From: Amnibacterium flavum
Lineage (GTDB): Bacteria; Actinomycetota; Actinomycetes; Actinomycetales; Microbacteriaceae
Assembly: GCF_003097495.1 (NCBI RefSeq)
Contig: NZ_QEOP01000002.1
Span: 1,178,001 to 1,242,000 of the forward strand
Direction: 5' to 3'
Length of the DNA: 64,000 bases
The notes beneath the pieces were generated by a model, which was not told the DNA's origin, searched no databases, and saw nothing but the letters and a program-made list of their open reading frames with translations. A program made the position numbers and the translations under genes. This document shows positions 11,575 through 61,179 of this stretch, one piece after another (the first letter of the stretch is position 1; each line of letters begins with the position of its first letter).

Positions 11575-11646
11575 ACTTCCGGCCCGCTGAGTCGCCCGGT
11601 GCAGGCAGTCGCGGCGCTCTGACCGCCTGAAGCGGGCAGCTCGGCG

Positions 11647-40218: not shown

Positions 40219-42183
<1,965 letters not shown>

Positions 42184-42202
42184 GCCCCCTCCACCCCGGG
42201 TT

Positions 42203-42303
42203 GCACCGATCAGGACCGGTTTCACCGATCAGGAGAAATCGCGGTTTCGTCCTGATCCGTGCAGAAATCCTCCTGATCCGTGCAGATCTCCTGATCCGTG
42301 CAG
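42203..42303. repeat. Left repeat cluster (family TCCTGATCCGTGCAG)
   Basis: Two inverted copies, GCACCGATCAGGA (42203-42215) and CACCGATCAGGA (42223-42234), are followed by three exact direct copies of TCCTGATCCGTGCAG at 42250, 42271 and 42289. The direct copies are 21 and 18 bases apart, so all lie in one reading frame. They encode an LHGSG-type tail of the endonuclease-like pseudogene on the minus strand. Spacers are only a few bases, so this is not a CRISPR array. Confidence 0.95.
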
Positions 42304-43163
42304 CGCGGCGAGGATGGCCGGGACGACGAGCGAGTCCCACGACTGCATCACCTGGGCGTAGGTGAACCTCAGCACCCGATAGCCGCGAGCAGCGAAGAGC
42401 GCGTCGCGATCCCGATCCCGAACGAACTGCTCGGCCGTCGCGTGCTGCGTTCCATCGCATTCGATGACCAGCCTGTCTCCGATGACGATGTCGGCCCGGT
42501 ACTTGCCGATGGGGAGCTGGATCACCGGTTCGAGGCCCATGCGCTGCAGTCGGAGACGAACGATGCTCTCGAGCGGGCTCTCGGCGCCCCGCACACTCAA
42601 CCCCGCGATGTCTCCTGAGGCGCCGGCGCAGAACCGAACGAGCATCCGGTAGAACGCGTCGTCGAGGTGCCCCTCCGACCCGGGCGTCTTCATCCGGGCC
42701 GCGTCGATGGCGGCCACCGACCACTCCTCACCAACGCACAAGACCATCTGCTGGAGGGCATCGACGAGCCCGACCCGAAAGCGCTGATGGCCGACACGCC
42801 TGTCCCTCCAGTGCAGGTGGACGCCGGGTTCGGCCCCCGCCGGAACATGCCTGCTCGCGTTAGTGCTGGACCGGAGGCGTGAGCTGTTCGGCTCGAGAGC
42901 GACATGCAGGCCTGCCTGCTGAGGGACGGGCAGCCCGTAGGACTCGGCGGCGGAGCAGCACCCCAGCATCCCGCCTACTCGCACTGCCCTTATCGCAGGA
43001 CCGGGAAGCGAAGGATCCACGTACAGCCGATACGTGGACGGATGAGCTCGCCGCTGTGCAGCATGGCGGCGATCTGGTGCCGAGTGAACCCGACGACCAG
43101 CAGGTCTTGGATGTGGGCGACGCCGTTGAGCATGCTCATTCGGCGGGCGATGGGGGTTGTCAT
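42229..43163 (-). pseudogene. Frameshifted AbiEi/DUF559 endonuclease-like gene
   Basis: The N-terminal part (start ATG 43163) encodes an AbiEi-like winged-helix segment, RRMSMLNGVAHIQDLLVVGF then RHQIAAMLHSGELIRPRIG. The rest continues in another frame with YVDPSLPGPAIRAVRVGG, then LGCCSAAESYGLPVP and a DUF559 (Vsr-like PD-(D/E)XK fold) domain with SPLESIVRLRLQRMG, YRADIVIGDRLVIECDGTQH and RVLRFTYAQV. Restoring one G on the gene strand at about 43024 (TGG TAC instead of TGTAC) joins them. The catalytic D and ExDG residues are kept, so the loss is recent or a sequencing error. The C-terminal tail and stop lie inside the left repeat cluster. Confidence 0.88.
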
Positions 43164-43270
43164 GCCCGGAAGGCTGGCATCGGCCCATCCGGCGTCATGT
43201 CCTCACATCGAGGTCGGTGGATGGATCTCGAAGTTTCCTGCCTGTGGCGGGGATGCGCCGGTGAGGAGAT

Positions 43271-43356
43271 CTGCACCGATCAGGACTGTTTCTGCACGGA
43301 TCAGGACCGAAATGTCTTTCGGTCCTGATCCGTGCGACGAGGCCTGATCCGTGCAG
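43271..43356. repeat. Right repeat cluster (family TCCTGATCCGTGCAG)
   Basis: Inverted copies CTGCACCGATCAGGA (43271-43285) and CTGCACGGATCAGGA (43292-43306) are followed by direct copies TCCTGATCCGTGC (43323-43335) and CCTGATCCGTGCAG (43343-43356). The middle pair extends to a perfect 19-bp inverted repeat, GCACGGATCAGGACCGAAA at 43294-43312 against 43317-43335, with loop TGTC. The order inverted-then-direct is the same as in the left cluster. Confidence 0.95.
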
Positions 43357-43380
43357 ACGGGGCGGATGCGAAGCCCCGGG

Positions 43381-44748
43381 TCAGGCGCTCAGTTCCTCGG
43401 CGACCAGGAAGGCCAGTTCGAGCGACTGCATGTGATTGAGGCGGGGGTCGCAGAGCGACTCGTAGCGGGTCGCGAGGGTGGCCTCGTCGATGTGCTCGGA
43501 GCCGCCCAGGCACTCGGTCACGTCGTCGCCGGTCAGCTCCACGTGGATGCCTCCCGGGTGGGTCCCCGCGGCACGGTGCGACTCGAAGAACCCCTTGACC
43601 TCGTCGACGATGTCGTCGAAGCGCCGGGTCTTGTAACCGGTCGGAGTCGTCACGCCGTTGCCGTGCATGGGATCGGTGACCCAGAGCGGTGTCGCGTCGA
43701 GCGTCTTGATGTGCTCGAGCAGCGGGGGCAGCGCATCGCGGATCTTGCCGGCGCCCATGCGGGTGATGAAGGTCAGACGACCCGGCTCGCGATCGGGATC
43801 GAGCTTGTCGATCAGCCGTTCCATGTCATCGGTCGTCGTGGAGGGACCGAGCTTCACCCCGATGGGGTTGCGGATCCGGGAGAAGTAATCGACGTGCGCG
43901 CCGTCGAGATCGCGGGTGCGCTCGCCGATCCAGAGGAAGTGCGCCGAGGTCGCGACAGGGGTGCCGTTGCGCGAATCGATGCGGGTCAGGGGACGCTCGT
44001 AGTCCATCAGCAGGCCCTCGTGGCCGGTGTAGAACTCGACGCGCTTCAGCTCGTCGAAGTCGGCGCCGGCGGCCTCCATGAAGCGGATGGCGCGGTCGAT
44101 CTCCTTCGCGAGGCCCTCGTACATGGCGTTCGCGGGGTTGCGGGCGAAGCCCTGGTTCCAGCTGTGCACCTCTTTGAGGCTCGCGAAACCGCCCTGGGTG
44201 AACGCGCGGACCAGGTTCAGTGTCGACGCGGCCGTGTGGTACCCCTGCACGAGGCGTGCGGGATCCGGGGTGCGGCTCTCGGCGGTGAAGTCGTATCCGT
44301 TCACCACGTCTCCGCGGTAGGCGGGCAGAGTCACGTCACCGCGGGTCTCGGTGTCACTCGAGCGCGGCTTGGCGAACTGCCCGGCCATGCGACCCATCTT
44401 CACGACCGGCATGGATGCGCCGTAGGTGAGCACGACGGCCATCTGCAGAAGGGTCTTCACGCGGGCGCGGATCTGATCGGCGGTGGCGCCGGCGAACGTC
44501 TCGGCGCAGTCGCCGCCCTGGAGGAGGAAGGCCTCGCCCCGGGCCGCCTTGGCGAGCCGGTCGCGCAGCTGATCGACCTCGCCTGCGAAGACGAGCGGAG
44601 GAAGTTTCGCCAGCTCGTTCGAGGCGGCAGCCACGGCCGCGGTGTCGGTCCAGGTCGGCTGCTGCTTGATGTCGAGGGTCCGCCAATAGTCGAGGCCGGC
44701 CAGAACGTCAGGACTGGCGGACACGACGGTCTCGGTGGGGTCGACCAC
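43381..44748 (-). CDS. Class II 3-deoxy-7-phosphoheptulonate (DAHP) synthase
   Basis: A 455-residue metal enzyme catalysing the first step of the shikimate pathway, condensing phosphoenolpyruvate and erythrose 4-phosphate. It belongs to the plant-like class II: QGGDCAETF (77-85, with metal ligand C81), MPVVKMGRMAGQFAKPRS, ATSAHFLWIGERTR, FITRMGAGKI and DPMHGNG are all present. N-terminal elements used for aromatic amino-acid control in Mycobacterium seem present. It begins with GTG 44748. It is alone between the repeat cassette and the acyltransferase gene. Confidence 0.95.
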   Translation of the reverse strand: MVDPTETVVSASPDVLAGLDYWRTLDIKQQPTWTDTAAVAAASNELAKLPPLVFAGEVDQLRDRLAKAARGEAFLLQGGDCAETFAGATADQIRARVKTLLQMAVVLTYGASMPVVKMGRMAGQFAKPRSSDTETRGDVTLPAYRGDVVNGYDFTAESRTPDPARLVQGYHTAASTLNLVRAFTQGGFASLKEVHSWNQGFARNPANAMYEGLAKEIDRAIRFMEAAGADFDELKRVEFYTGHEGLLMDYERPLTRIDSRNGTPVATSAHFLWIGERTRDLDGAHVDYFSRIRNPIGVKLGPSTTTDDMERLIDKLDPDREPGRLTFITRMGAGKIRDALPPLLEHIKTLDATPLWVTDPMHGNGVTTPTGYKTRRFDDIVDEVKGFFESHRAAGTHPGGIHVELTGDDVTECLGGSEHIDEATLATRYESLCDPRLNHMQSLELAFLVAEELSA

Positions 44749-49257: not shown

Positions 49258-49324
49258 GGCCCGACACTCTCGAAGTCACCTGTGAGCTGGCTTCACGTGG
49301 TGAGTACGCATGTTCCAGGCTGAT

Positions 49325-49430
49325 GCGCACGCCGCAACGTACGTCTGGGGCCGGATTCTCCGGGCGTGGGCTGGGCGGGCCGCCCCCTGCGCGCACGTTG
49401 CGGCGTGCGGGGCCGGCCGCAACGTGCGCG
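49325..49430. repeat. Right flanking repeat cluster (CGCACGCCGCAACGT family)
   Basis: GCACGCCGCAACGT (49327-49340) occurs again inverted as ACGTTGCGGCGTGC (49395-49408). CGCGCACGTTGCGG (49390-49403) is in turn repeated inverted as CCGCAACGTGCGCG (49417-49430). The last pair can form a 14-bp stem with a 13-base loop. The cluster lies in the 207-base gap between the membrane-protein gene and def. Confidence 0.85.
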
Positions 49431-61063: not shown

Positions 61064-61081
61064 GCCGCGCGCTCCCCGTCC

Positions 61082-61179
61082 GCACGGGTTCAGGATCGGT
61101 GGCGCTTCTCGACGGCGGTTCCGTCCCGATCCGCGCCAAAGAAGTTCTGATGTCCGCGCAGATGTCCTGAACCGCGCAG
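61082..61179. repeat. Degenerate solo cluster of the TCCTGATCCGTGCAG family
   Basis: GCACGGGTTCAGGA (61082-61095) is an inverted, diverged copy. Then come TCCCGATCCGCGCCA (61124-61138), TTCTGATGTCCGCGCAG (61145-61161, with two extra bases) and TCCTGAACCGCGCAG (61165-61179, two mismatches to the 15-base unit). The inverted-then-direct order matches the clusters at 42.2 and 43.3 kb, but no endonuclease gene is present. It lies between the convergent emfourin and NUDIX genes. Confidence 0.7.

Follow-up and report, generated by a model that had tools for sequence, protein, structure and literature searches.

Palindrome-bracketed DUF559 genes suggest an undescribed family of nuclease-linked mobile repeats

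Palindromic repeats and enzymes described so far

The closest described systems are the REPtrons, in which tnpA_REP genes, usually single-copy and bordered by palindromes, have REPs in immediate proximity while most REPs are found genome-wide (available text of PMC8266576). Inverted REP doublets, the REPINs, form hairpins (PMC3116915, text available in part). REPs lie mainly downstream of genes, RAYT genes are flanked by GTAG repeats or long inverted repeats, and CGTC-tagged REPs apparently have no dedicated transposase, as far as the accessible part of PMC3733652 goes.

The locus analysed here lies at 42.2-43.4 kb of the window, by which we mean the whole 64-kb stretch of DNA, and carries a DUF559 gene between repeats that we call class B. 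It shares with REPtrons a chromosomal gene bordered by palindromes and present once or a few times per genome, numerous dispersed inverted units of the bordering palindrome near gene 3' ends, co-variation of enzyme and repeat, and a genome (G003) that keeps the repeats without a gene of the class B clade. The differences are a DUF559 nuclease with a winged helix here as against an HUH Y1 transposase there, a class B consensus without GTAG, and an actinobacterial host. Because the genomic logic is common but the enzyme unrelated, we do not file the locus as a REPtron, and a strict REP/RAYT assignment was rejected, the window genome having no match to PF01797 (Y1 transposase). MITEs are short non-autonomous elements with inverted ends whose parent transposon carries a gene. 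The present elements are likewise short, with inverted ends and a gene-carrying parent copy; however, each parent end is here a whole palindrome, there is no known transposase, and no clear target-site duplication was seen at the one site that could be aligned.

A search of the PDB with the DUF559 profile returned two structures at E < 0.01, namely 3hrl, an endonuclease-like protein (E 1.1e-9), and 3r3p, a mobile intron protein (E 0.001) which we take to be I-Bth0305I, a Vsr-like EDxHD homing endonuclease. The nuclease domain is thus related to that of the EDxHD/Vsr homing endonucleases, but the DUF559 genes studied here are intergenic and palindrome-bracketed and were not seen inside an intron or intein. 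These homing enzymes are treated as a class in the available text of PMC12350094. The N-terminal winged helix recalls the AbiEi antitoxin, reported in the accessible part of PMC7319586 to bind inverted repeats, whereas the DUF559 protein is fused to a nuclease domain; no gene for the AbiEii nucleotidyltransferase toxin was noticed among the cassette neighbours read by eye. The CGTC-tagged REPs are also short palindromes, and 6 of 12 aligned class B copies start with CGTC, a tag absent from the ends of the other repeat classes examined. Units, stems and length differ between the two, and no dedicated enzyme is reported for those REPs in the portion of PMC3733652 available.

The cassette and the class B repeat

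The first-pass annotation had described 15-bp repeats, five copies to the left and four to the right of an AbiEi-winged-helix/DUF559 gene. All nine are present and far exceed chance: TCCTGATCCGTGCAG has 13 matches in the window at up to three mismatches, nine of them in the segment, against a mean of 2.96 and a maximum of 7 in 100 shuffles (0/100 reach 13), and a tenth, decayed unit lies at ~43254 in the right element. The copies are, however, not free units as first supposed, since each side of the gene is a single ~102-bp palindromic element of five units in a fixed frame (unit starts at 0-, 19-, 49-50+, 70-71+ and 88-89+, or the reverse complement), and the two elements are mutually inverted, the left forward and the right reverse. 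The PASTA kinase and DUF559 genes converge on the left element, which separates their 3' ends (Table 1). Neighbouring genes were called with a script using open reading frames and GC3 and named by eye, except for three named by Pfam.

Table 1. Features of the cassette and related repeats in the window
Feature	Position	Strand	Basis
Left repeat units (starts)	42201-, 42220-, 42250+, 42271+, 42289+		TCCTGATCCGTGCAG matches
Right repeat units (starts)	43271-, 43292-, 43323+, 43342+		TCCTGATCCGTGCAG matches
Left palindromic element, class B, units --+++	42200..42304	+	model R1 E 4.8e-28; among the model's 12 copies
Right palindromic element, one end unit decayed	43252..43359	-	model R1 E 2.9e-25; among the model's 12 copies
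DUF559 gene: AbiEi-like winged helix and Vsr/EDxHD-type nuclease; frameshifted near 43020	42301..43163	-	Pfam, two-frame tblastn, placement of the start codon; AbiEi-like part from intact relatives
PASTA-domain Ser/Thr kinase, pknB-type; left neighbour, insertion-site marker	40219..42183	+	Pfam
Class II DAHP synthase ("aroG" here); right neighbour, insertion-site marker	43381..44748	-	Pfam
Solo class B element, decayed	61078..61179	+	model R1 43.3 bits, E 7.9e-11
Solo class A hairpin, decayed	11589..11642	.	two inverted units, 3 mismatches each; read by eye

Folded class B copies are very stable (z -3.3 to -9.7, 11 folds). A structured RNA was rejected as the main reading, single copies pairing in different registers; the consensus fold has a double change in 1 of 26 pairs, and the five matches returned by an Rfam search were weak, since each concerned a microRNA family and fell short of its gathering score.

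The bracketed gene belongs to DUF559 (PF04480, Pfam E 6.6e-12), as first read, but the copy in the window assembly is frameshifted: residues 1-46 and 48-288 of an intact relative in genome G005 are matched in different frames (tblastn), and the gene is therefore broken. Intact copies occur in relatives, where the AbiEi-like N-terminal part is seen; the class B protein N-terminus matches the PADLOC AbiEi model with a best E of 2.5e-7, and Pfam AbiEi_4 gives E 2.9e-5, slightly under its cut-off. Across 28 aligned rows, two of which are the same protein, E199, D225, E235, D237, D250, R253 and D254 are invariant and H241 occurs in at least 90%, a pattern of acidic residues plus H241 that predicts an EDxHD/Vsr-type nuclease. 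Of 296 genomes sampled across the phylum, 120 carry DUF559. With one DUF559 protein as query, a search of 72,556 plasmid records (E 1e-10) gave nothing and one of 50,697 phage records (E 1e-5) gave a single match.

Class B units are widely dispersed, the window genome holding 72 at up to two mismatches versus 3 for the reversed control pattern. Model R1, which uses sequence only and was built from 12 copies including both from the cassette, finds 14 places at E < 1e-20 in that genome, among them its 12 source copies. A two-end pattern searched in 84,980 species recovered 63 stretches. Naasia (Microbacteriaceae) accounts for 57, and the remaining six are single matches in other bacteria; 46 of the 63 clusters read span 98-102 bp, with variable inner units (the pattern admitted ~88-117). 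The palindromes are dispersed mainly between genes, as judged for 28 solos; 15 of these separate two convergent genes, and 18 are no more than 40 bp away from the 3' end of a gene.

Eight of the nine Naasia genomes (G000 to G008) have matches to model R1. Those with a GATCAGG/GGATCC-clade DUF559 gene (G000, G001, G002, G004 and G005) have 36-95 matches with both strands counted, and those without one have 32 (G003), 7 (G006, 68% complete), 2 (G008, both at one place) and none (G007). Since G003 keeps 32 matches without a DUF559 gene of that clade, class B elements seem able to persist after its loss. In the window genome, class B has probably ceased to spread because its DUF559 gene is broken there.

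The elements also vary in build. In Naasia sp. SYSU D00948 (L145, 5767-6190), 15 class B units of alternating orientation fill 423 bp, apparently as tandem elements, and a copy in the window genome (L018, 3031-3150; C2:522229-522350) has six units, one ~19-bp unit being repeated. A central core, GACACGCCG / CGGCGTGTC, is shared by class B elements across genera whose end motifs differ; it is held by L209, L210, L212 and L214 and by the Naasia elements of G001, G003 and G004.

Orthologous sites and DUF559 loci elsewhere

At the convergent pknB-aroG pair, the element-DUF559-element arrangement occurs in two of the nine Naasia genomes, only G000 and G005, and is flipped between them so that the gene faces pknB in one and aroG in the other. 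The other seven have neither the DUF559 gene nor a class B element there. Our initial view of this as a bare empty site was corrected, since other hairpins occupy several of the cassette-less gaps (by eye, in G001, G003, G004 and G006, with an apparent ordinary terminator in G008). The suggestion that relatives might lack the segment with a clean junction was accordingly borne out as to the absence, although several of the gaps are not bare and no exact junction was found; at one aligned element-less site there is no clear target-site duplication, the flanks being too diverged for an exact junction. Upstream of ispG, a class B solo is present in G000 and missing from G005, which has the same upstream gene; in the remaining genomes the element is missing, the gene upstream is read as a different one, and other hairpins are present in several (by eye). 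On the downstream side of ispG an element is found in G003, G004 and G005 and not in G000. Cassettes of the class B clade occupy three distinct Naasia sites.

One cassette, L191 of G002, beside a pyrR-like gene, has a glycosyltransferase-like gene that separates the DUF559 gene from the far element. In G001 (L187) a similar gene lies outside the cassette, possibly reflecting cargo or rearrangement (both by eye).

In Naasia the top-scoring DUF559 genes are bracketed by the class B repeat, and in the flanks read for the 30 best DUF559 relatives drawn from 398 Microbacteriaceae genomes, matching palindromes likewise stand on either side of the gene, their motifs varying with the lineage. An exact-arm test, in which a shared 9-mer arm and its complement 45-140 bp further on must occur in both flanks, was positive for 22 of these 30 relatives (5 of them from Naasia) and for 0 of 600 shuffled locus trials. 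Among Naasia DUF559 loci (30 of 33 matches, the three left out being in G002) it was again positive for 22/30, versus 3 of 1001 control windows that were shorter, with 510 bases a side against 1100 and 640 for the DUF559 flanks; one of the three positive controls is the window cassette itself and another (L100) has a further DUF559 relative.

An alignment test, comparing flank with flank in equal windows at a threshold of 45, was positive for 26/30 loci in Naasia, 19/28 in other Microbacteriaceae and 12/28 in other Actinomycetota (L240 and L258 left out), compared with 8 of 458 controls; L225, which is short, was left out of the test. Most control windows were taken from Naasia loci, and six stretches of other bacteria supplied the rest; two of the eight positive controls (L092, L129) overlap DUF559 genes. 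The mismatched-pair null of this test has its 99% point at 61, above the threshold, because the loci of one genus share repeats, so that the 458 genomic windows form the better control. Outside the family, 16/28 loci are negative by alignment, some positives stand barely above the threshold and may not be palindromes (e.g. L252, L276), and the exact-arm test is positive for 3/30 (L264, L267 and L272), with equal left and right spans. The further Microbacteriaceae loci L278-L281 scored 0/4 by exact arms and 2/4 by alignment. Extension to short DUF559 proteins (<200 aa) was dropped after 2 of 14 loci proved positive, one of them through a C-rich run. Flank-to-flank scores of 63-134 with quite different sequences were noted for L267, L272, L253, L257 and L254-L256, from other families of the phylum.

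The association is also visible from the side of the repeats. A reverse scan of 702,674 bases, mostly from Naasia, gave eight intervals of 650-1500 bp with matching palindromes, six of which hold a DUF559 relative by tblastn; these six comprise L100 and L123, fetched only for a class B element elsewhere in the locus, L129 and L143, found via the cassette's own ends, and L284 and L285, fetched as known cassettes. Conversely, 6 of the 8 DUF559 genes in the scanned sequence lie inside such intervals, the strict test missing the window cassette and L092. At most loci the two bracketing copies are inverted, and at L227, L230 and L231 they are clearly direct. At L163 (G003) and L166 (G001) the cassette ends have grown into arrays of one and the same hairpin unit, from more than 150 up to ~480 bases a side.

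These results support the earlier proposal of a gene-plus-repeat cassette, most other DUF559 loci examined being bracketed by different repeats, and they answer its question of whether the clusters are tied to DUF559 rather than merely scattered: the repeats are dispersed, yet one Naasia clade of the gene is bracketed by class B. A restriction of the association to class B was dropped because other DUF559 genes have repeats of their own.

The window genome encodes three PF04480 genes, all three positive by the exact-arm test, and correspondingly three families (classes A, B and C), each consisting of one nuclease gene and dispersed hairpins. The class A repeat is a 56-bp hairpin, GAGTTGCCCAGTTC ... 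GAACTGGGCAACTC, whose cassette lies ~5 kb left of the window between glpK-like and trpD-like genes and has an open gene of 297 aa; the class A pattern has 66 matches in the genome versus 9 for the control, and reading 15 loci gave 16 solo hairpins, with none in L298. Class C has units CGCTCAGCAGG and a cassette at C1:1035642-1036792; counted by pattern alone, it has 129 matches versus 46 for the control. DUF559 lineages each have different repeats, and enzyme and repeat co-vary. On a tree of 73 proteins (L167, which is short, left out), repeat labels assigned by eye as the three classes plus 'other' are explained by 4 changes, where shuffled labels take 31.7 on average, with one change for class A, one for class C and two for class B. 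Repeat similarity rises with protein identity across the 39 cassettes that have exact arms on both sides when the N-side element of one is compared with the C-side element of another (Spearman 0.443, to which near-copies add; 0/2000 permutations as high).

Readings of the nuclease-palindrome pairs

Given this bracketing, dispersal, co-variation and presence or absence at orthologous sites, we consider it likely that the 42.2-43.4 kb segment is a member of a widespread class in which a DUF559 nuclease gene sits between its own palindromes and the repeat is copied in trans. The AbiEi-like winged helix would bind the inverted units, and the C-terminal Vsr/EDxHD-type domain would nick or cut at or beside the cognate palindrome, perhaps where replication forks leave it extruded or single-stranded. 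The ~50-110-bp palindrome would then be copied in trans to further intergenic positions by repair or strand transfer. The bracketing pair would keep the gene and its substrate together and, from time to time, relocate or invert the gene. The comparison with REP-RAYT drawn at first pass is borne out in its genomic logic, and we infer the remainder, namely that the nuclease binds, cuts or spreads the repeats and so drives their mobility.

The palindromes could instead be bidirectional terminators or insulators spread by ordinary recombination, with DUF559 as insulated cargo whose nuclease is inactive on the repeats. The convergent-gene and 3'-end positions of the solos and the very stable folds would suit such a role, as would the unrelated hairpins that related species have in the pknB-aroG gap and upstream of ispG. 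We nevertheless regard this as unlikely, since it leaves unexplained why the same repeat is so frequent on both sides of DUF559, why repeat similarity tracks nuclease identity and why DUF559 is found in six of eight bracketed intervals; transcription termination may be a side effect of the palindromes.

Two further readings make the enzyme central in other ways. A defence or toxin-antitoxin-type gene related to AbiEi might regulate itself through inverted repeats in its promoter, the downstream and dispersed copies being secondary. The AbiEi model matches of intact relatives and the binding of inverted repeats reported for the antitoxin (available text of PMC7319586) point that way, but a closely similar copy also stands behind the gene, solo copies are many and, by eye, none of the cassettes read showed a partner gene, which together make autoregulation very improbable. 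We give still less credence to a homing-type cassette, in which the nuclease would cut cassette-less sites, repair would copy in the whole element-gene-element unit and solos would be remnants after gene loss. The profile match to 3r3p and the three different Naasia sites of class B clade cassettes are consistent with homing; against it, cassettes are few relative to the many solos, and these are mostly uniform at ~56 or ~102 bp rather than scars of varied length.

Returning to copying of the repeat in trans, we lean, on balance, towards a broader proposal: that an unrecognised class of mobile palindromic repeats, which arose independently of REP/RAYT, has its dedicated enzymes in the winged-helix DUF559 nucleases of Microbacteriaceae and probably other Actinomycetota as well. 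In this class many divergent enzyme-repeat pairs would co-diversify, several per genome, and a 50-110-bp hairpin would be spread in trans by a nuclease and not by an HUH or DDE transposase. Searches of the open-access PMC literature turned up no earlier description of DUF559-linked repeats, and the data above point to mobile repeats of a nuclease-linked family so far undescribed. Cognate palindromes offer a testable role for DUF559, a large family whose function is unknown, and the link would account for a class of intergenic hairpins. The differing motifs of the natural pairs also provide a panel for recognition experiments and possible site-specific tools.

The window contains, in addition, a big imperfect palindrome at 49307-49428 with 37-nt arms that are 76% complementary. 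By eye it resembles hairpins at L019 and upstream of ispG in G008, and it perhaps represents a further repeat family.
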